DNA of 64,000 bases. It comes from Lichenicoccus roseus (GTDB lineage Bacteria > Pseudomonadota > Alphaproteobacteria > Acetobacterales > Acetobacteraceae). A model generated the notes under the pieces. The model was not told the DNA's origin and did not search any database. It was given only the letters and a program-made list of their open reading frames with translations. Numbering within the stretch: the stretch's first letter is position 1; every line of letters starts with the position of its first letter. The position numbers were made by a program, and so were the translations under genes. The stretch covers positions 186,001 through 250,000 of the forward strand of contig NZ_VCDI01000004.1 of the NCBI RefSeq assembly GCF_005844085.1, written 5' to 3'. Shown here in pieces: positions 21,157 through 43,665 of the stretch.

Positions 21157-22944
21157 TCAATCGCCCCAGTGTGGGTCGGTCATCTGGTCGAGCACGGGTG
21201 CGGACGGCACGCAGGCGAACGAGCCGGCCTGGTTCGCATCGCCGCCGCGATAGGCCGCGTGCAGCGGATACTGGCAAAGCGGACGCTGGAACGCGATGCC
21301 GCTCGCGGGCGTGTCGTTGAGGTACTTGGTCGCGGTGATCCGGGTTGGCGGCACGCCGTGCTCGACCCAGGCAATCAGCGCGCCGAGGGCATCGTCCTGC
21401 CGGTCGAGCGGCACCGGCGGCAGTGGCTGCGAGGTGGCGCCGAAGCTGTTGGCGCCAGGCCCGCCGTCGCAATGCTCGACGCCCGGCGCCATGAACAGGC
21501 GGAGATAGCTGTTCACCTTTACAGGATCGGTGGCGAACACCGCCGTGTAGTAGTTGATCGCCGTGGCGCTAGGGATCAGCGGATCGTCGTAACCCTGGTA
21601 GAGCAGCATGCGGCCGCCGTGCCTGGCGAAGGCGGACAGGTTGGTGCTGTTTGCATTGACCGTGCCGGCGAAGCTGTCGCCGCCGATCGGGAACGCATCC
21701 GCGGCATCCAAGGCCTTGCTGATCAGCACATTGGTGTTCCGGTGCTTGGTCAGCAGGGAAGGCCACTGCCACGACGGGCCGTAGATCCAGTAGAACAGGC
21801 TGTCGAAGTCCGGTTCGGCCTGGATCTGCGTCCAGGTGAGGCCGATGTCGCCGATGAAGCCGTTTGCCGCTGTAAGCGGGATCGGCTCTTCCGCGCCGCG
21901 CTCGAAACCGGGCTGTTCGCGACGTCCGAGATCGTCGTTCACGCCGTTCCAGTAGACACCGATCGTCGTCGCCTGCGCAGGCGTGAGGCAACTGCATTTC
22001 GCCGATGTAGGATCGGTGCACGGCACCTCCTCGGATACGCCGTGACAGATCAGCTGGTGGACGTCGGCAGGGCAGGAATAGGGCTGCTCGAGGAAATCGT
22101 CGGTCGCGAGCCCGCCATCGTGACCTGCGCATCGCGCCAGGACATTGCCGTGGATGAGAGCGAGGGCGGCGTTGGTCAGGTATCCGCCGGGCTCGCGGGC
22201 ATTGGCGTAGAGCGCGGGGCTCGAGGCGATCTGGTGGGTGCGGTTGTGCGCCGGCGCGCCGGCCAGGATGCCGTCGTAGTCGGTGGGGAAGCGCTGGCTC
22301 TCGGAGAACGCGTTCTGGCCGCCGGTGGAGCAGCCAGCGAAGTAGCTGTGCGCCGGCTGGTTGCCGTACAGCGCCGCGGTCACCTGCTTGCCGACCAGCG
22401 TCATCACATGGGTCGCGGCGTAGCCGAAATCCCTGATCGACTGGGGATTGCCGTAAAGCCCGCCGGGCTTGCTGCCGCCGCCGGTCGCGTCGCCGCAGGA
22501 AAGCGGGTTGCAGGCATAACGTAGCCCGGTGCCGAGGTCGTCGTTGGCGACGGCAAAGCCTTCCTGCAGGCGTTGCGACAGCGCCACGTAGTCGAGGGTG
22601 CCGGCGTAGCCGCCGTTGCCGGTGCCGATGAAGCGACCGTTCCAGCCCTGCTCCGGCAGCCAGGCCTCGATGGAAATGAGCGACTGCGCGGGATTGCCGT
22701 TCGAGGACGCCGTGATCTGCACCCGGCAGAACGCCGGCAGGCCGGTGATCGACGCGGTATAGCCGGGGGGCAGGAAGCTGCCGCCGGTGACTTCGGTGCC
22801 CTGGGCAGAGACGACGGTCGCGCCGCCGCCGAGGTTGAAGGCCGTCGGCGAGATCGTCTCGCAGGACGAGGCGTGCGCGGCCGGGGCCGCCGCGAGGGCC
22901 ATGGGCAGGGCCAGCCAAAACATGTGGCGCGATTGCGCGAACAT
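21157..22944 (-). CDS. Exported tannase/feruloyl esterase
   Basis: Secreted alpha/beta hydrolase of 595 residues with a signal peptide (LALPMALAAAPAAHA). It follows the tannase/feruloyl esterase pattern. The nucleophile is S206, directly preceded by C205 in YFAGCSTGGQN. The acid is the aspartate in YQGYDDPLIPS. The histidine in APGVEHCDGG is followed by a cysteine, giving the family CS-D-HC arrangement. It should cleave ester bonds of gallate-, ferulate- or similar hydroxy-aromatic esters in the periplasm or outside. A strong AGGAGG precedes the ATG. It is the first gene of the minus-strand operon and diverges from the radical-SAM gene. Confidence 0.9.
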   Translation of the reverse strand: MFAQSRHMFWLALPMALAAAPAAHASSCETISPTAFNLGGGATVVSAQGTEVTGGSFLPPGYTASITGLPAFCRVQITASSNGNPAQSLISIEAWLPEQGWNGRFIGTGNGGYAGTLDYVALSQRLQEGFAVANDDLGTGLRYACNPLSCGDATGGGSKPGGLYGNPQSIRDFGYAATHVMTLVGKQVTAALYGNQPAHSYFAGCSTGGQNAFSESQRFPTDYDGILAGAPAHNRTHQIASSPALYANAREPGGYLTNAALALIHGNVLARCAGHDGGLATDDFLEQPYSCPADVHQLICHGVSEEVPCTDPTSAKCSCLTPAQATTIGVYWNGVNDDLGRREQPGFERGAEEPIPLTAANGFIGDIGLTWTQIQAEPDFDSLFYWIYGPSWQWPSLLTKHRNTNVLISKALDAADAFPIGGDSFAGTVNANSTNLSAFARHGGRMLLYQGYDDPLIPSATAINYYTAVFATDPVKVNSYLRLFMAPGVEHCDGGPGANSFGATSQPLPPVPLDRQDDALGALIAWVEHGVPPTRITATKYLNDTPASGIAFQRPLCQYPLHAAYRGGDANQAGSFACVPSAPVLDQMTDPHWGD

Positions 22945-23116: not shown

Positions 23117-23131
23117 GAACAATACAGGAAC
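23117..23131 (+). promoter_or_regulatory. LexA (SOS) box
   Basis: GAACAATACAGGAAC is a perfect GAAC-N7-GAAC direct repeat, the reverse complement of the alphaproteobacterial LexA site GTTC-N7-GTTC. It ends nine bases before the GTG start of the radical-SAM repair gene, close enough to block transcription or initiation. Together with the repair functions of the two downstream genes, this makes SOS control likely. The promoter -35/-10 could not be fixed with confidence. Confidence 0.75.
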
Positions 23132-23139
23132 ATGGCTAA

Positions 23140-24369
23140 GTGGAACTTCTCCAGAAGCTCGAGATCCTGGCCGACGCCGCGAAATACGACGCGTCCTGCG
23201 CCTCGAGCGGCACCGACAAGCGCGACAGTCGTGGCGCCAAGGACGGCGTCGGTTCCACCGAAGGCATGGGCATCTGCCACGCCTATGCGCCGGACGGCCG
23301 CTGCATCTCGCTGCTCAAGATCCTGCTGACCAACTCCTGCCTGTTCGAGTGCGCCTACTGCATCAACCGCGCCTCCTCGAACGTGCGCCGGGCCCGCTTC
23401 ACGGTGGACGAGGTGGTCCGCCTCACGCTCGGCTTCTACCGGCGCAACTGCATCGAGGGGCTGTTCCTGTCTTCCGGCATCATCAAGTCGCCGGACTACA
23501 CCATGGAGCAGGTGATCGGCGTCGCCCGCACGCTGCGCGAGACGCACGGATTCCGCGGCTACATCCACCTCAAGACCATTCCGGACGCCGATCCGCTGCT
23601 GCTCGAGGAGGCCGGGCGCTGGGCCGACCGGCTTTCGATCAACGTCGAACTCCCCACCGAGGCGGCGCTCGCCGACTACGCGCCGGAGAAGGACATGGGC
23701 GGCATCAGGCGCTCGATGGGCCGCATCCGGCTCGGCATCGACGCCGCCCGCGAGAAGACCGCACCGGGCCGGGCGAAGCCGCGCCGGTTCGCGCCGGCTG
23801 GCCAGTCCACCCAGATGATCATCGGCGCGGATGCGAGCTCCGACCGCACCATCCTGCGCACCAGCACCAACCTGTATGGATCGTATGGTTTGAAGCGGGT
23901 CTACTACTCGGCCTTCTCGCCGATCCCGGATGCGGCGGTGGCCCTACCGCTCCGACCGGCGCCGCTTCTGCGCGAGCACCGGCTGTACCAGGCCGACTGG
24001 CTGCTGCGGTTCTACGGGTTCGGCGTCGAGGAACTGACCACGGACAGTTCCGGCAACCTCGACCTCGAGCGCGACCCGAAGCTGGCCTGGGCGCTGCAGC
24101 ACCGCGAGATGTTCCCGGTCGACGTCAACCGCGCCGACAAGGAGGCGCTGCTCCGTGTGCCCGGCTTCGGGGTGAAGTCGGTGGGGCGCATCCTCACCGC
24201 GCGACGGCACCGCAGCCTGCGGATGGACGACCTTGCCCGCCTGCGCATCTCGATCGCCGCCATCGCGCCCTTCGTGGTGGCGGCCGACCACACGCCGCGC
24301 GGCGAATTGGACAGCGTCCGGCTGGCGGCACGGGTCAGCAGGAAACCGGCGCAGCTCAGCCTGCTTTGA
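23140..24369 (+). CDS. Putative DNA modification/repair radical SAM protein with HhH
   Basis: A 409-residue protein of the putative DNA modification/repair radical SAM family. The [4Fe-4S]-SAM motif CLFECAYC is at residues 67-74 (C67, C71, C74), with extra cysteines at 20, 46 and 55. An SSGI(I)KSPDYTMEQ segment follows. A C-terminal helix-hairpin-helix (VNRADKEALLRVPGFGVKS, about 325-345) can bind DNA without sequence preference. The start is a GTG at 23140, directly after a LexA box. It is co-directional with, and 7 bp from, the DUF4130-UdgX gene. The chemistry is unknown; DNA repair is inferred from the HhH, the partner and the SOS site. Confidence 0.88.
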   Translation: MELLQKLEILADAAKYDASCASSGTDKRDSRGAKDGVGSTEGMGICHAYAPDGRCISLLKILLTNSCLFECAYCINRASSNVRRARFTVDEVVRLTLGFYRRNCIEGLFLSSGIIKSPDYTMEQVIGVARTLRETHGFRGYIHLKTIPDADPLLLEEAGRWADRLSINVELPTEAALADYAPEKDMGGIRRSMGRIRLGIDAAREKTAPGRAKPRRFAPAGQSTQMIIGADASSDRTILRTSTNLYGSYGLKRVYYSAFSPIPDAAVALPLRPAPLLREHRLYQADWLLRFYGFGVEELTTDSSGNLDLERDPKLAWALQHREMFPVDVNRADKEALLRVPGFGVKSVGRILTARRHRSLRMDDLARLRISIAAIAPFVVAADHTPRGELDSVRLAARVSRKPAQLSLL

Positions 24370-24376
24370 GGCCGGC

Positions 24377-25861
24377 ATGCGGAATGTCGTCCTTGCCCAT
24401 GAAGTGGATTTCGCGGCTTGGCGCGCGGCGGCACGCGATCTCGCCATCGAGGGCGTCCCTCCCGAGGCGGTGATCTGGTCGGTGGGCGCGCCGGACGACC
24501 TCTTCGCGGGCACCGAACAGCCGCCGCAACCCGCTGCCGCCGCAGCATTCAGCGTGCCTCGGCCACTGGTCGAGCTGGCGCAGACGGTGATCCAGGCCCG
24601 CGAGCCGGAGCGATTCGCGCTGCTGTATGGCCTGATCTGGCGCACCAGCCGGGGCGAGAAGCGGGTGATCGAGGACGTCACCGACCCGCAGGTCGCGCGC
24701 GCCATCCGGCTCTCGCAGTCGGTGCGGCGCGACACCCACAAGATGCGCGCCTTCGTGCGCTTCCGGGCGGTCGAGGAGGAGGGCGTTACCCGCTATGTGT
24801 CGTGGTTCGAGCCCGACCACTTCATCGTCGAGGCCAATGCCGACTTCTTCGTGCGCCGCTTCGCCACCATGGTGTTCTCGATCCTGACGCCGTACCGCAG
24901 CCTGCACTGGACCGGCAGTCAGGTCGATTTCAGCCCCGGCGCCGACCCCTCGCAGGTGCCGGACGACGACGCGCTGGAGCGCTACTGGCGCGCCTATTTC
25001 AGCTCGATCTTCAATCCGGCGCGGCTGAAGGTCTCGGCGATGACGTCGGAGATGCCGCGCAAATACTGGCGCAACCTGCCCGAGGCCGCCGCCATTCCCG
25101 AACTGGTGCGCGCGGCGCAAGAGCGCACCAGGACCATGCTGGAGACTGCTCCGATGCCGAAGACCGCCCCGACGCCCAAGGCTGCAACGCGTCCGAAGGC
25201 AGCCCAGTCGCTCGTCGAACCGGGTGAGCCCGCCATCGGCGACCTGTTGGCGGACACCCTTCCGGCCTCGGTCGCGGCGCTCGCCAGGGACGCGGCCGGG
25301 TGCCGGCGCTGCCCGCTCTGGCAGCCGGCGACGCAGACGGTGTTCGGCGAGGGTCCGCAGGATGCGGCGATGATGATGGTCGGCGAGCAGCCGGGCGACC
25401 AGGAGGATCTTGCGGGCCGGCCGTTCGTCGGGCCTGCCGGCCAGCTGCTCGACCGCGCCATACGCGAGGCCGGGATCGACCGGCAGGCGGTCTACGTCAC
25501 CAATGCGGTGAAGCACTTCAAGTTCGAGCCGCGCGGCAAGCGGCGCATCCACCAGAAGCCGGACAACAGCGAGATCACCGCCTGCGCCCCATGGCTGGCC
25601 GAGGAACGGCGGCTGGTGCGTCCGGCCCTGCTGCTGATGCTCGGCGCCACCGCCGCCCGCGCGGTACTGGGCCGGACGGTGACCATCTCGCGCGAGCGCG
25701 GCCGGCCGATCCCGCTGGAGGGAAACACCCAGGGCTTCGTCACCGTGCACCCGTCCTACCTGCTGCGGCTGCCGGACGAGGAGGCGAAGCGGCGTGAATA
25801 TGCCGCCTTCGTCGCCGATCTTACGCACGCAAGGGAGCTGCTCGCGGAACTGGCGGCCTGA
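24377..25861 (+). CDS. DUF4130 (TIGR03915-type) - UdgX fusion, uracil-DNA binding protein
   Basis: A 494-residue fusion. Residues 1-250 form a DUF4130/TIGR03915-like domain with VRRDTHKMRAFVRFR and HFIVEANADFFVRRF. After an Ala/Pro/Lys-rich linker (255-285), residues 290-494 are a UdgX-type uracil-DNA glycosylase: motif A GEQPGDQEDLAGRPF at 336-350, the signature KRRIH at 388-392 and HPSYLLR at 458-464. In UdgX the histidine of KRRIH bonds covalently to the excised uracil site, making a suicide complex. Cysteines for the iron-sulfur cluster are C309, C312 and C403; a fourth ligand is not evident (M421 lies where family-4 enzymes often have Cys). It is in an operon with the radical-SAM gene. 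Its 3' end overlaps an opposite-strand lipoprotein gene by 41 bp. Confidence 0.9.
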   Translation: MRNVVLAHEVDFAAWRAAARDLAIEGVPPEAVIWSVGAPDDLFAGTEQPPQPAAAAAFSVPRPLVELAQTVIQAREPERFALLYGLIWRTSRGEKRVIEDVTDPQVARAIRLSQSVRRDTHKMRAFVRFRAVEEEGVTRYVSWFEPDHFIVEANADFFVRRFATMVFSILTPYRSLHWTGSQVDFSPGADPSQVPDDDALERYWRAYFSSIFNPARLKVSAMTSEMPRKYWRNLPEAAAIPELVRAAQERTRTMLETAPMPKTAPTPKAATRPKAAQSLVEPGEPAIGDLLADTLPASVAALARDAAGCRRCPLWQPATQTVFGEGPQDAAMMMVGEQPGDQEDLAGRPFVGPAGQLLDRAIREAGIDRQAVYVTNAVKHFKFEPRGKRRIHQKPDNSEITACAPWLAEERRLVRPALLLMLGATAARAVLGRTVTISRERGRPIPLEGNTQGFVTVHPSYLLRLPDEEAKRREYAAFVADLTHARELLAELAA

Positions 25862-26471
25862 GAGAAGGTGCCAGCAGCAGCGGCTGCTCGGAGAAGGTGT
25901 CGATCGGCACGCGGCCGAAGTCGCGCAGCGGCAGCGCCTGTTGCGGGGGCAGCGTACCGGCGCGCGCGACGGCACTCCGCACGACCGCAAGTGTCGACGG
26001 CGCCACCGTCGCCGGGGTGGCGGCCAGGATGGCGATGGTGCCGCGATACTGCGACGGCGAGGTCGAGCTGTTGAGGGTCGCGATCTCCTGGGCGAGGTAG
26101 CCGTCCAGGCCGACATAGTCCTTCAGGGTCTGCTCGAGGTCAGGCTGCGACGGCAGCAGGATCAGCGCCTCGCAGATGGCGATCTGCTGCAGATCCATGC
26201 CCTCGATCCGGTCGGACACCGCCTGCGTCGTGTCGGCGAAGGATACCCCGCCGACCTGCGCCTTGATCACCGCACCGAACGGCAGGGTGATGCCGCTGAT
26301 GCTGAAGGTCTCGGAGCGCGGACTGTAGAGTTCCCGGCAGACCAGCCCGACCTGTTGCATGCCGCCGCCGGGCTCCGGCACGTCGACGTAGCCACGCATG
26401 ACCACGCCGGGGTCACAGGCGGCGAGGCACAGCAGGGAGAGCACGCAAAGCCGGGATCGATTGTTCGCCAT
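25821..26471 (-). CDS. Putative lipoprotein, function unknown
   Basis: About 216 residues with a lipoprotein signal ending in the lipobox LAAC, followed by DPGVV, so it is expected to be lipid-anchored. The remainder has no recognised domain: a beta-rich first half (GMQQVGLVCRELYSPRSETFSIS) and a helical second half (RIEGMDLQQIAICEALI). The ATG at 26471 has GGAGAG eight bases upstream. It ends inside the UdgX gene on the other strand. It lies downstream of, and in the same direction as, the DyP-like gene. Confidence 0.7.
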   Translation of the reverse strand: MANNRSRLCVLSLLCLAACDPGVVMRGYVDVPEPGGGMQQVGLVCRELYSPRSETFSISGITLPFGAVIKAQVGGVSFADTTQAVSDRIEGMDLQQIAICEALILLPSQPDLEQTLKDYVGLDGYLAQEIATLNSSTSPSQYRGTIAILAATPATVAPSTLAVVRSAVARAGTLPPQQALPLRDFGRVPIDTFSEQPLLLAPSLRPPVPRAAPLRA

Positions 26472-26533
26472 CACGCCGGCTCTCCCGCCGCCGCCCGTCG
26501 CGGTGCGTGGACAGCCTAGCGTGTCCCCACCGG

Positions 26534-27627: not shown

Positions 27628-27658
27628 CGTTGCCAGCCGGTCGCATGGCGCACCCGTG

Positions 27659-28912
27659 ATGCATATCCATCTCGATGCCATCGGCGGGGTGGCAGGGGAC
27701 ATGTTTACCGCCGCCCTGCTCGACGCCTTTCCGCAGCATGCCGAAGCGCTTTCGGAATGCGTGCGACGCCTGGCCCCGGTCTCGTGCAGCCTTCAGCGTC
27801 ACGATGACGGCATCCTCACCGGGAGCCGCTTCGACGTGGTCGACACGACGGTCTCCGCAGGACACGACCACCACCATACGCATGACCAAAAGCATGGACA
27901 CGAGCATGGACATGGCCATGGGCACACGCACTGGAGCCATATCCGCGCCCGGCTGAGCGGATCCGACCTGGAGCCGGCCGTCACCGGAATCGCCATCGGG
28001 ATCTTCGGGCGGCTCGCCGAGGCCGAGGGCCGTGTGCATGGCGTGCCGGCCGACGAGGTCGCCTTCCACGAGGTCGGCGCCGCGGACTCCATCGCCGACA
28101 TCGTGGCTGCTTCATGGCTGATCGCCAGGCTGGGCGAGGAAACCGGCTGGAGCGTCTCGGCGCTGCCCCTCGGCTCCGGCCGGGTGCGAACCGCGCACGG
28201 CATCATGCCGGTCCCCGCGCCTGCAACGACCATATTGCTGGAAGGCTTCGAGATCGTCGACGACGGCGTTGCCGGAGAGCGCGTCACCCCGACCGGTGCC
28301 GCCATCCTGGCCTGGCTGGCCGACTCCGGCCGGCTGCGTTCGCGTCCATCCGGGCGAATGGGCGCGACCGGGATCGGCTTCGGCACCAGGCGCCTTCCCG
28401 GCCTCAGCAACTGCCTGCGCGCCCTGGTGCTGCAGACCGGTGCGACCGAGCGCGACACCGCCGCCGCGCATCGTCTGCTGGCGGTGATCGGCTTCGAGAT
28501 CGACGACCAGTCGGGCGAGGATCTCGCCACCGGCCTCGACCGGCTGCGCGACCTGCCCGGGGTGCACGATGTCGTGCAATGGCCGACCATCGGCAAGAAG
28601 GGCCGGCTTGCGGTACACGTGCAGGTGCTGGTGGTGCCGGACCGGCTGGATGACGTGGTCGCGGCCTGCTTCACCGAGACCACCACCATCGGTCTGCGAA
28701 CTCACATGGTCGAGGGGCGGGCGCTTCACCGCAGCCTGAGCCAGGTGTCCGTCGACGGGCTGCCTGTGCAGGTCAAGCTGGTGGACCGGCCCGGGCAGCG
28801 CACCGGCAAGGCCGAGGCCGACCATGTGGGGACGGCGCTAGGCCACGCCGGCCGGCAGGCGCTCAGGCGCCGCGCCGAGCAGGCGGCAAGCGGAGAGAAC
28901 GATGGACGCTGA
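27659..28912 (+). CDS. larC: LarC, nickel insertion (chelatase) for the nickel-pincer cofactor
   Basis: Enzyme that inserts nickel into pyridinium-3,5-bisthiocarboxylic acid mononucleotide, finishing the NPN cofactor; about 417 residues. The N-terminus MHIHLDAIGGVAGDMFTAAL is typical of LarC. A histidine-rich segment (residues 69-91) is a probable nickel store. LPLGSGRV, AHGIMPVPAPAT and VTPTGAAIL, then the C-terminal part with GKKGRLAVHVQVL, follow. A GTG directly precedes the chosen ATG. Its stop overlaps larE by 11 bp. No larA is in the operon. Confidence 0.92.
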   Translation: MHIHLDAIGGVAGDMFTAALLDAFPQHAEALSECVRRLAPVSCSLQRHDDGILTGSRFDVVDTTVSAGHDHHHTHDQKHGHEHGHGHGHTHWSHIRARLSGSDLEPAVTGIAIGIFGRLAEAEGRVHGVPADEVAFHEVGAADSIADIVAASWLIARLGEETGWSVSALPLGSGRVRTAHGIMPVPAPATTILLEGFEIVDDGVAGERVTPTGAAILAWLADSGRLRSRPSGRMGATGIGFGTRRLPGLSNCLRALVLQTGATERDTAAAHRLLAVIGFEIDDQSGEDLATGLDRLRDLPGVHDVVQWPTIGKKGRLAVHVQVLVVPDRLDDVVAACFTETTTIGLRTHMVEGRALHRSLSQVSVDGLPVQVKLVDRPGQRTGKAEADHVGTALGHAGRQALRRRAEQAASGENDGR

Positions 28913-29753
28913 CGACATCAACCCGGCGCAGGACGCTCAGGCTGGGGAAGCCCTGGCTCGCCTGCGGGCCAACCTGGCAACCCTGCGTGGCACCGGGGCT
29001 GCGGTCGCGGTCAGCGGTGGCATCGACAGCCTCACGCTCTCGGCGGCAGCCCATGCGGTGCTCGGAGCCGGTGTGGCGATGCACCATGCCACCTCGCCCG
29101 CGGTGCCATCCGAAGCCACCGAACGGACCAGGGCCCTCGCCGAGCTGCATGGCTGGCGGCTGGAGATCTTCGACGCCGGCGAGTTCGCCGATGCCGACTA
29201 CCGCGCCAACCCGGTCAATCGCTGCTTCTTCTGCAAGACAAGTCTGTATGGCAGCATAGTCCGCCGCCTCGCCGCGACCGGCGTCATCGTGCTGTCCGGC
29301 ACCAACACCGACGATCTTGGCGAGTATCGTCCCGGCCTCGAAGCCGCGCGCCTGCACGGCGTGCGGCATCCCTTCGTCGAGGCGGGGATCGACAAGGCGA
29401 TGGTCCGGCGCATCGCCCGGCTGCTTGGGCTCGGGACGCTGTCGGACTTGCCCTCGGCACCGTGCCTGTCGAGCCGGATCGAGACCGGGATCGCCATTGA
29501 ACCGGCGACGCTTGCCCTGGTGCACGATGTCGAGCGCACCGTGACACGACGCCTGCGACCCGCCACCGTGCGCTGCCGGGTGCGCGCCGACGGCATGGTG
29601 GTGGAACTCGATCCGGGCGCCCTCGCCGCCCTGCCTGCGGAACCTTCCGGTCTGCTGCAGGAGATCGAGGCGCTGGCACGACGCGCCGGCGAGGTGCGTC
29701 CGGTGCGCTTCGCGCCCTACCGGACCGGCAGTGCCTTCCTGGTCGCACCATGA
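28902..29753 (+). CDS. larE: LarE, ATP-dependent sulfur transferase of NPN cofactor synthesis
   Basis: PP-loop ATP pyrophosphatase family enzyme that converts the carboxylates of the LarB product to thiocarboxylates; 283 residues. The P-loop is SGGIDS at 38-43. Cysteines occur in NRCFFCK (C108, C111) and PCLSSRI (C188). One lactobacillus LarE donates its own cysteine sulfur, while LarEs with three clustered cysteines can hold a [4Fe-4S] cluster. The three cysteines here would fit the latter, which is inference. It overlaps larC by 11 bp and larB by 4 bp, so it is coupled on both sides. Confidence 0.92.
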   Translation: MDADDINPAQDAQAGEALARLRANLATLRGTGAAVAVSGGIDSLTLSAAAHAVLGAGVAMHHATSPAVPSEATERTRALAELHGWRLEIFDAGEFADADYRANPVNRCFFCKTSLYGSIVRRLAATGVIVLSGTNTDDLGEYRPGLEAARLHGVRHPFVEAGIDKAMVRRIARLLGLGTLSDLPSAPCLSSRIETGIAIEPATLALVHDVERTVTRRLRPATVRCRVRADGMVVELDPGALAALPAEPSGLLQEIEALARRAGEVRPVRFAPYRTGSAFLVAP

Positions 29754-30427
29754 GCGAGTTCAAGCTCGACCTCGAGCGCACCGCCCGGATCGGCTTCGGC
29801 GAGGCGATCTACTGCGCCGGCAAGTCTGCCGCCCAGGTAGGCGCTATCCTGGAGTCCGACCCGGCTCGCTCGTTGTTGCTGACACGCCTGGATGCCGCGA
29901 AGTTCGACGCCCTGCCGACGCCGGTTCGAAGCCGGCTCGACTGGGACCCGGTCTCGCAGACCGCGTGGCAGGGCGACCCGGCTCCGGTCGCGGGACATTC
30001 CGGGCCGCGCATCGCCATCGTGACCGCCGGCACGTCGGATGTTCCGGTGGCGCGCGAGGCGGCGCGGACGCTGCGCTTCTCTGGACATGACAGCACGGAG
30101 ATCGTCGATGTCGGCGTCGCTGGCCTCTGGCGGCTGCTTGACCGTGTCGAGGAACTGCGCCGGCACGAGGTGGTGATCGTGGTGGCCGGCATGGATGCGG
30201 CGCTGCCCAGCGTGATCGGCGGCCTGGTGCCGGGCGTGGTGATCGCGGTGCCGACGTCGGTCGGCTACGGCGTCGCCGCGGGCGGCCGCGCGGGGCTCGA
30301 CGCCATTCTCGCCAGCTGCTCGCCCGGCGTCACCGTCGTGAACATCGATAACGGCTATGGCGGCGCCTGCGCCGCGCTGCGCGTCCTCAACGCAATGACG
30401 CGCCTCAGCAAGGATCACTCCTCATGA
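29750..30427 (+). CDS. larB: LarB, pyridinium-3,5-biscarboxylic acid mononucleotide synthase
   Basis: PurE-like carboxylase/hydrolase that starts NPN cofactor synthesis from nicotinic acid adenine dinucleotide; 225 residues. Features include an N-terminal EAIYCAGKSAAQ stretch, the PurE-like GTSDVPVAREAARTL near residue 93, VVVAGMDAALPSVIGGLV and VIAVPTSVGYGVAAGGRAGLDA. Its ATG overlaps the larE stop and its own TGA overlaps the ATG of the following aldo/keto reductase, tying all four to one transcript. Confidence 0.93.
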   Translation: MSEFKLDLERTARIGFGEAIYCAGKSAAQVGAILESDPARSLLLTRLDAAKFDALPTPVRSRLDWDPVSQTAWQGDPAPVAGHSGPRIAIVTAGTSDVPVAREAARTLRFSGHDSTEIVDVGVAGLWRLLDRVEELRRHEVVIVVAGMDAALPSVIGGLVPGVVIAVPTSVGYGVAAGGRAGLDAILASCSPGVTVVNIDNGYGGACAALRVLNAMTRLSKDHSS

Positions 30428-42504: not shown

Positions 42505-43608
42505 TTGAGAACCCTGCTCCTCACTCCCGGCCCGCTCACCACCACGGACGCCACCCGGGCGGCGCTCGGCCATGACTGGGGCTCGCGCGATCCGGCGTTC
42601 GTGGCCCTGACCAGCCGGCTGCGCAGCCGGCTTGCGGCCATCGCCCACGGCGAGGACACCCATGACGCGGTGCTCCTCGCCGGCTCCGGGACGTTCGCCG
42701 TGGAGGCGGCGATCGGCACCCTGGTGCCACGCGACGGCAGGCTGCTGGTGCTGGCGAACGGCGCCTATGGCGAGCGCATGGCGGCGATCGCTGGCCAGAT
42801 CGGACGCGCCTGCAGCGTCGAGCGCTGGGCGGAGACGGCGCCGGTCGATCCCGGGCGGGTACGTGCCATCCTGCGCGAGGATGCCTCGATCACCGACGTC
42901 GCCGTGGTGCAGTGCGAGACCACCACCGGCCTGCTGAACCCCGTCGAGGCGGTGGCGGGGATCGTCGCCGAGGCCGGGCGGCGGCTGCTGGTCGACGCCA
43001 TGAGCGGGTTCGGCGCGTTGCCGCTCGACCTCCGCCAAATCCGCGCCAGCGCCGTGATGGCCTCCTCGAACAAGTGCCTGGAAGGTGTCCCCGGCATCGG
43101 CGTGGTGGTGGCGGAACGCAGCCATCTGGCAGCCTGCGCCGGCCAGTCGCACAGCCTGTCGCTCGACCTGCATGCCCAATGGCGCGGCTTCGTGGCCAAC
43201 GGCCAGTGGCGCTACACGCCGCCGGTGCAGGTGGCCGCGGCGCTGGAGGCGGCGCTGGACCAGCTCGATGCCGAAGGCGGCCCGCAGGCACGCCTCGCCC
43301 GCTACCGGAACAACCACGCGATGCTGACCGCCGGCATGGCGCGGCTCGGCTATCGCACCACCCTGCCCGCCGCGTTGCAGGCGCCGATCATCGTGACATT
43401 CGACGAGCCGGGAGCCGGATTCGATTTCACGCGTTTCTACGATGCGCTGCAGGCCGAGGGCATCGTGATCTACCCCGGCAAGCTCACCCAGGCGCCGTCG
43501 TTCCGCATCGGATGCATCGGGGCGATCGACGGGCACGACATCGCCCGGGCGCTGGACTGCATCGCCCGGATCACCGCTCAGCAGGCGGAGCCGGTTGGGA
43601 CGAACTAG
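42505..43608 (+). CDS. phnW: 2-aminoethylphosphonate-pyruvate transaminase-like aminotransferase
   Basis: Class V PLP aminotransferase, 367 residues. It matches PhnW, which interconverts 2-aminoethylphosphonate and phosphonoacetaldehyde with pyruvate/alanine. Features: LLTPGPLTTTDATRAAL at the N-terminus, AGSGTFAVEAA, QCETTTGLLNP, DAMSGFGA and the PLP lysine K190 in ASSNKCLEGVPG. The start is a TTG. No phosphonatase gene (phnX) is next to it, unlike in degradation operons. It is instead divergent from a lipid operon with a CDP-alcohol phosphatidyltransferase, which may hint at phosphonolipid synthesis. Confidence 0.87.
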   Translation: MRTLLLTPGPLTTTDATRAALGHDWGSRDPAFVALTSRLRSRLAAIAHGEDTHDAVLLAGSGTFAVEAAIGTLVPRDGRLLVLANGAYGERMAAIAGQIGRACSVERWAETAPVDPGRVRAILREDASITDVAVVQCETTTGLLNPVEAVAGIVAEAGRRLLVDAMSGFGALPLDLRQIRASAVMASSNKCLEGVPGIGVVVAERSHLAACAGQSHSLSLDLHAQWRGFVANGQWRYTPPVQVAAALEAALDQLDAEGGPQARLARYRNNHAMLTAGMARLGYRTTLPAALQAPIIVTFDEPGAGFDFTRFYDALQAEGIVIYPGKLTQAPSFRIGCIGAIDGHDIARALDCIARITAQQAEPVGTN

Positions 43609-43665
43609 ACTGGAACGATGGCCGCCTGCGGCAGGACATCAACACTCAGCACAGGATGATAGCGC

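Follow-up and report, generated by a model that had tools for sequence, protein, structure and literature searches.

What does an operon do that sets a radical S-adenosylmethionine (SAM) protein and a DUF4130-UdgX fusion behind a LexA-type box, and which of its parts form the core of the system? We address this question for a two-gene locus of Lichenicoccus roseus (contig NZ_VCDI01000004.1, positions 186,001 to 250,000), the whole stretch of 64,000 nucleotides being called the window throughout. The preliminary description, made from the letters of the window, had read the locus as an SOS-controlled repair operon centred on UdgX and as a candidate undescribed pathway; this reading is partly supported, since a role in DNA damage is likely, while a clamp-type tail and three extra cysteines of the radical-SAM protein had been missed. 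Comparison across loci and genomes supports the LexA-type box, a division into core and accessory parts, the clamp-type tail, the invariant cysteines and an intact UdgX signature, and we somewhat favour an SOS-induced radical-SAM enzyme that would dock on the sliding clamp and treat lesions at stalled forks together with DUF4130, with UdgX as an optional uracil anchor.

The bare pattern GAAC-N7-GAAC is not rare, as the window holds two exact copies against 0.88 expected, a number reached by 23 of 100 shuffles, and the whole genome 109 against 56 for the reversed control pattern; therefore, place and conservation were tested instead, and it is these, not the box by itself, that are significant. 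Searching from -150 to +15 of the match start, with the expectation drawn from the remainder of the same loci, we found the exact box in 75 of 87 alphaproteobacterial loci including the window (0.32 expected), the class of some genomes among the 105 oriented loci being inferred from their closest named relatives and five weak matches (L026-L030) being excluded from the counts. Minus one duplicate, L108, on the same contig as L020, the number is 74 of 86, in orientations of 65 and 9. Mean identity of the 20-base flanks amounts to only 28 and 30%, which shows conservation of the box within diverged surroundings. Among held-out alphaproteobacterial loci drawn later, 24 of 24 carry the exact box (0.16 expected), their genes sharing 73-92% DNA identity with the nearest gene of the first set and four of them (L180, L181, L184 and L185), 90-92% identical to L006, being relatives and not independent lineages. 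The preliminary description had let its reading stand or fall with conservation of the box in relatives, and on this point the outcome is clearly favourable: the box is exact, genuine and conserved near the starts of orthologs.

The genomic context of the box points in the same direction. In the same genome, boxes of this type lie at or before the starts of lexA, uvrA, parE, an imuA-like gene and a ligase-associated DEXH helicase gene, where the imuA-like match reaches 64 of 150 bits and the uvrA, parE and helicase matches stay below the cut-off since they are cut by stretch ends. Known SOS or repair genes account for five of the 18 boxes inspected, which were chosen by eye for A+T-rich spacers from 100 listed genome places, and the rest stand at open reading frames (ORFs) left unnamed or matchless when tested. 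The spacer of the window box is mediocre, at rank 14 of the 100, with lexA's own box at rank 16. On sequence comparison, LexA control of the operon is strongly supported and very probable. The second exact site of the window (43602-43616) was taken as chance, since an ORF (42505-43608) ends inside it and its spacer ranks 68 of 100.

Several further observations concern this type of element. An AGGAA stretch resembling a Shine-Dalgarno sequence (23126-23130) sits within the right arm of the window box, an out-of-frame ATG (23132) follows immediately 3' of it, and eight bases lie between the box end (23131) and the GTG start (23140); a scan with the sigma-70 consensus found no promoter, such a scan being uninformative in Alphaproteobacteria. 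Elsewhere in the genome, two near-identical 100-amino-acid proteins (L140:1521-1820 and L153:1196-1495; locus and genome labels are ours) begin 5 bp from a GAAC-N7-GAAC, and a similar protein occurs at a third place (L135:1495-1821); none of the three has an NCBIfam match, nor L140 a Pfam match, and their genes are possible candidates for SOS control. Xanthomonadaceae orthologs without GAAC-N7-GAAC carry an inverted repeat, TCTCA-N5-TGAGA, at a nearly fixed place 38-47 bp upstream of the radical-SAM match, which is present in ten of 18 gamma- and betaproteobacterial loci (L045, L073, L083, L085, L087, L088, L094, L099, L101 and L110) and nowhere else in 193,383 bases, and which may serve a different regulator as operator or form a hairpin. 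Two metagenome-assembled genomes, of Rhodospirillales (L032) and Acetobacteraceae (L033), lack the direct-repeat box and have the palindrome GAAC-N4-GTTC, the Gram-positive type of LexA box, 13 bp upstream of the radical-SAM match, with five others in 717,185 bases elsewhere.

Whether UdgX is the centre of the system can be judged from its distribution. Across 385 genomes of the class, evaluated at the curated NCBIfam cut-offs, the radical-SAM family TIGR03916 occurs in 25, the DUF4130 family TIGR03915 in 25 and both in 24, the exceptions being G045 (match at a contig end) and G182 (radical-SAM match a fragment). UdgX exceeds its cut-off in 34 genomes, 15 of them without the pair; 17 of the 24 pairs have it joined to DUF4130 in one protein. 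The other seven pairs lack a fused UdgX and represent four genera; G033 and G260 have UdgX over the cut-off elsewhere in the genome, and G162, G175, G198, G252 and G271 showed no UdgX match over the cut-off. At the level of the 105 loci, DUF4130 and uracil-DNA glycosylase (UDG) share one frame in 91, DUF4130 stands without UDG in 12 (including L071, cut by the contig end), and neither was seen in two (L025, cut, and L109, with only 0.7 kb downstream). Nine UdgX-less operons retain the box (L003, L008, L009, L012, L013, L014, L059, L069 and L170). The loci of Parabacteroides, Acinetobacter and Acetoanaerobium have radical SAM and DUF4130 but yielded no UDG, and the control genome of Bacteroides ihuae matches TIGR03916 and TIGR03915 without any match to TIGR03914. 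Because the pair co-occurs while UdgX varies, the constant unit is radical SAM plus DUF4130; as far as the compared sequences tell, this pair is the core and UdgX an add-on, and the central place that UdgX had been given gives way to an optional one.

As accounts of the core task, two alternatives fit poorly with the many pairs that lack UdgX. A base-excision-repair operon with the glycosylase as its central part and the radical-SAM protein as accessory would agree with a UdgX signature that every one of the 48 UDG-bearing rows preserves, and with PMC8565304, which labels the system UDG-based base excision repair (COG1573-COG4277). We nevertheless regard it as rather improbable, as it has to accommodate the seven pairs without fused UdgX, including five genomes without any UdgX over the cut-off, the UDG-less loci of the three genera, the B. 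ihuae genome and, according to PMC10359453, a UdgX that remains bonded to its own product. Removal of the covalent UdgX-DNA adduct by the radical-SAM enzyme would suit two neighbouring genes and supply the route that such bonds need for their removal, but the pair occurs without UdgX and UdgX occurs in 15 genomes without the pair, which leaves this idea very unlikely.

Where UdgX is present, its signature motifs are kept. The fusion protein scores 198.9 bits to TIGR03915 (cut-off 112.25), 129 bits to Pfam DUF4130 (gathering score 27) and 331 bits to TIGR03914 (cut-off 190), confirming the fusion first described. In its AlphaFold2 model (mean predicted local distance difference test, pLDDT, 87.4; predicted template modelling score 0.53), the UdgX domain fits the Mycobacterium smegmatis UdgX structure with a Z of 31.7 and a root-mean-square deviation of 1.3 over 195 amino acids. 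The window signature comprises motif A GEQPG, the R-loop KRRIH, correctly spotted before, and motif B HPSYLLR, and E337, Q338, R390 and H392 are kept in all 48 UDG-bearing rows of the 52 aligned with MAFFT; the motif list and the DNA-bonding histidine H109 of M. smegmatis are taken from PMC10359453. A narrow pattern, K[RKQ]2[ILVM]H, missed 52 of the 105 loci, which reflects the choice of pattern and segment, not absent histidines. Since the signature is intact and the model agrees closely with M. smegmatis UdgX (PDB 6ajo and 6l6s), with which the window domain shares GEQPG, the R and H of KRRIH and motif B, covalent bonding to uracil sites is likely kept; unlike the mycobacterial protein, the window domain is fused to DUF4130 and encoded in an SOS operon. 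Seven of 48 fused UdgX domains, from Roseomonas, Belnapia and Dankookia (L046, L048, L053, L072, L074, L081 and L098), lack C309, C312 and C403, which the other 41 keep, while retaining H380 and the bonding histidine; these seven perhaps lack the Fe-S cluster.

A hint to the place of action comes from the end of the radical-SAM protein. Its C-terminal motif, of the type that binds the sliding clamp, recurs across loci as QLSLF, QLELF, QASLF, QADLF, QPDLF, QTEMF, QLSLPLF, QMQLPF and QLGFGF, a variation known for bacterial clamp-binding motifs. Such a motif lies in the last 20 amino acids in 102 of 103 loci against a mean of 7.2 in shuffled tails, and in 25 of 25 held-out loci against 2.1, the single locus missing the pattern reading QLSFF. 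These counts are not blind, as the pattern was widened to known penta- and hexapeptide types after both sets had been viewed, with the shuffles using the wide pattern as well; the stricter first pattern had matched 63 of the 103 loci and 17 of the 25. L108, the duplicate, and L025, which the contig end cuts, are omitted, and the held-out 25 include L163, which is not alphaproteobacterial and stands outside the held-out box count. Among eight distant members (L155 omitted), the last 20 residues contain a match in five, and the others carry QLSIF, QLSFF or QLSMF further in; QLILPF is found in Parabacteroides, QLSLGF in Acinetobacter and QLSIF in Acetoanaerobium. Since the motif sits further in for some distant members and need not be terminal, a C-terminal degron, considered as another meaning of the tail, is disfavoured. 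The DUF4130 proteins, fused or not, show a clamp-type motif at the tail in 0 of 96. Residues 404-409 of the radical-SAM model have a pLDDT below 50, placing the pattern in a disordered tail, and in DnaE, encoded in the same genome, a QIGLFG stands 230 residues before the C-terminus. In its way of working, the radical-SAM protein would resemble ImuB of the SOS mutasome, which combines damage induction with clamp docking through a short motif (QLPLWG, PMC10421592); the window protein differs in having radical-SAM chemistry and no polymerase domain. Taken together, these tails make docking of the radical-SAM protein on the sliding clamp likely.

The chemistry itself can be narrowed down by the cysteines. 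With 553 bits to TIGR03916 (cut-off 343.5), the window protein clearly belongs to the family, which is above the cut-off in 84 of the 398 genomes sampled from the phylum and is also found in Bacteroidota and Clostridia; no chemistry for it was found, in line with the preliminary description. The CX3CX2C motif (C67, C71, C74) is present in 52 of 52 aligned rows and nine of nine distant sequences, and C20, C46 and C55 are invariant in the 52 rows and present in eight of the nine. These six are the only cysteines present in at least 10 of the 52 rows, and the conservation of the additional three suggests that they hold an auxiliary Fe-S cluster. The AlphaFold2 model (mean pLDDT 83.8) retrieved radical-SAM cores, among which HydE, lipoyl synthase and biotin synthase lead with practically equal Z scores near 17; such a tie on the common core identifies the radical-SAM superfamily only.

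On these data, two further chemistries can be weighed. Insertion of sulfur into, or methylthiolation of, a DNA base, with the auxiliary cluster donating the sulfur as it does in LipA or MiaB, would be consistent with three cysteines just N-terminal of CX3CX2C, as in the layout of LipA, whose extra cysteines are N-terminal, and with LipA, BioB, HydE and MiaB among the best fold matches. It is a fairly improbable reading, because these matches reflect the common core, the spacing C-x25-C-x8-C differs from that of LipA, and damage induction suits repair better than modification; compared with LipA, HydE and BioB, which share the core fold, the window protein also has a helix-hairpin-helix (HhH) and a DNA-damage context. 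The second, an SplB-type photolyase that directly reverts a thymine photoproduct of UV light, would account for radical SAM, a DNA-binding motif and SOS control in one operon. SplB has a conserved cysteine as hydrogen-atom donor C-terminal of CX3CX2C, which is without counterpart here because no other conserved cysteine, and none C-terminal of C74, exists in the 52 rows, and neither the NCBIfam nor the Pfam matches include a spore photoproduct lyase family. SplB is likewise a radical-SAM protein and shares the proposed DNA substrate, but lacks the combination of HhH, clamp-type tail, three extra N-terminal cysteines and DUF4130 partner that marks the window protein. In print, DUF4130 is linked to 'SplB-like radical SAM photolyases' (PMC3765255) and SplB is described as SOS-regulated in several species (PMC8565304). 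Overall, we consider an SplB-type activity unlikely; that SplB is not among the 50 fold matches listed carries no weight.

The preliminary description had also given the radical-SAM protein a helix-hairpin-helix. While its radical-SAM nature is firm, the HhH is probable: P341-G-x-G is invariant in the 52 rows, PGxG is conserved in the distant sequences, and the family profile reaches the HhH chains of ComEA and RuvA at E 0.03-0.2. Among the nine distant loci, DUF4130 adjoins in seven (in L159 seen only with the NCBIfam model), and L154 has the three cysteines with another gene next to it, so the coupling of the cysteines to DUF4130 is not absolute. A paralog on a megaplasmid of Gemmatirosa kalamazoonensis (L155:3001-4263; 36% identical, 303 bits to TIGR03916, below the cut-off) keeps CX3CX2C, the HhH and a QLSLWD, is without equivalents of C20, C46, C55 and H47, and is followed 3' by a histidine kinase gene, not DUF4130.

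A DNA modification or anti-phage defence system was considered as well, in view of the NCBIfam title 'DNA modification/repair' and of matches in 10 records of a phage collection. Neither protein matched a PADLOC family at E up to 0.01, PHROGs gave weak matches only and viral contigs one relative, and the SOS-type box is conserved, so defence or modification appears extremely unlikely. The named-phage record examined (L158, CAKLQH020000003.1, filed as Acinetobacter phage MD-2021a) looks like host chromosome, not phage, because glyQ and glyS adjoin the pair.

The features of the locus are listed in Table 1. With the radical-SAM stop codon ending at 24369 and the next ATG at 24377, the 7-bp gap of the earlier two-gene operon is confirmed; in many other loci, the radical-SAM and DUF4130 genes overlap by 1 or 4 bases according to the chosen start codons. 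The operon consists of two genes only, because the upstream neighbour, a tannase-family gene (21157-22944, minus strand), is divergent and the downstream ORF (25821-26474, minus strand) convergent. Further along the window (27656-30427), a Ni_insertion protein gene, an ORF without Pfam match and an AIRC-family gene stand in a row, presumably resembling the larC-larE-larB layout of nickel-pincer cofactor genes.

Table 1 Features of the radical-SAM/DUF4130-UdgX locus in window coordinates
Feature	Position	Strand	Basis
LexA-type box GAAC-N7-GAAC, GAACAATACAGGAAC	23117-23131	+	Exact pattern; conserved across alphaproteobacterial loci
Radical-SAM protein with probable HhH (TIGR03916 rSAM_link_UDG), 409 aa, GTG start	23140-24369	+	NCBIfam, AlphaFold2, fold search
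Three extra invariant cysteines C20, C46, C55, predicted auxiliary Fe-S ligands	codons 23197-23199, 23275-23277, 23302-23304	+	Alignment
CX3CX2C (C67, C71, C74), signature of the SAM-binding [4Fe-4S] cluster	23338-23361	+	Alignment
Probable helix-hairpin-helix, aa 327-356	24118-24207	+	Pfam HHH_3 below gathering score; family profile; PGxG conserved
C-terminal motif of sliding-clamp-binding type, QLSLL, aa 405-409	24352-24366	+	Tail pattern versus shuffles
DUF4130-UdgX fusion protein, 494 aa, ATG start	24377-25861	+	NCBIfam, Pfam, AlphaFold2
DUF4130/TIGR03915 domain, aa 9-237	24401-25087	+	NCBIfam; co-occurrence with TIGR03916
UdgX domain, aa 239-484, optional module	25091-25828	+	NCBIfam; match to M. 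smegmatis UdgX structure
UdgX R-loop KRRIH (H392 = H109 of M. smegmatis UdgX)	25538-25552	+	Alignment

Considering previous work, the pathway is less undescribed than had been proposed. The pair is named in NCBIfam, and both window proteins exceed the curated cut-offs as members of the same families, with nothing tested setting the window apart from them. A paper of 2013 (PMC3765255) already assigned DUF4130, together with radical SAM and uracil glycosylases, to the SOS network, and LexA/SOS control of the gene pair is in print for Bacteroidetes in PMC8565304, which cites earlier reports in Verrucomicrobia and Alphaproteobacteria; a Streptomyces LexA target is given in PMC9380542 only as 'Radical SAM protein'. 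The pair and its SOS control are not new, because both are already in print. COG4277, as used in the printed label, we take to be the TIGR03916 radical-SAM family. In the open-access literature searched, no description of the clamp-type tail, the three cysteines or the split into core and accessory parts was found, and as far as this search shows, these are new here.

How might the parts work together? LexA at the box would keep the operon off, and upon DNA damage its cleavage would allow both genes to be made together. The radical-SAM protein would then dock on the sliding clamp (DnaN) through its C-terminal QLSLL, as ImuB does, hold the DNA with its HhH and carry out SAM-derived radical chemistry on a damaged or unusual nucleotide at a stalled fork, probably aided by an auxiliary Fe-S cluster at C20, C46 and C55. 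DUF4130 would be its partner, probably recognising or presenting the lesion, and the fused UdgX, bonding covalently to uracil sites in DNA, could anchor DUF4130 there. From the features compared we infer LexA binding, clamp binding, the cluster, DNA as the substrate, the treatment of a lesion and the anchor role; among these, lesion chemistry in DNA is plausible, with the balance tilting slightly in its favour. More tentative is the fuller picture of an enzyme that rides DnaN like a translesion polymerase but reverses or processes the lesion in place, with two Fe-S clusters, DUF4130 and an optional UdgX anchor.

Several observations weigh against this proposal. Twelve of the 86 alphaproteobacterial loci lack the exact box, although in five of them a site with one mismatch lies on the expected side (L106, one of the twelve with only 5 bp upstream, and L071, with its partner cut, were kept in the counts), and the exact box was found in 0 of 18 gamma- and betaproteobacterial loci and is absent from the UdgX-less L005, L037 and betaproteobacterial L065. 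DUF4130 does not adjoin in L154 (none within 0.77 kb), L109 (0.7 kb) and L155. Regarding the tail, DinB and ImuB of the same genome showed no clamp-type match near theirs, and the only such match in MutS is a loose QAGIL, 13 residues ahead of the C-terminus. The cysteine-rich N-terminal stretch has a pLDDT mostly below 50 and lends the cluster no structural support, and Pfam HHH_3 matches at E 0.0034 with 17.9 bits, below the gathering score of 27. For DUF4130, no fold was found, as a PDB profile search returned 0 matches at E up to 1 and the fold-search lists for the fusion were filled by UDG matches.

In conclusion, this study turns to a widespread family that stands behind a DNA-damage switch and is named but uncharacterised, and assigns it features from which its activity may be approached: the clamp-type tail indicates where the enzyme should act, the coupling to DUF4130 which partner it should have, and the three cysteines which cofactor it should use. 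As the constant unit is radical SAM plus DUF4130, the printed label does not fit operons without a glycosylase domain, suggesting that the name of a uracil-glycosylase repair system is misleading for them. If the proposed mechanism is true, the operon would represent a chemical repair docked on the replisome, a route apart from excision repair, photolyases and bypass.

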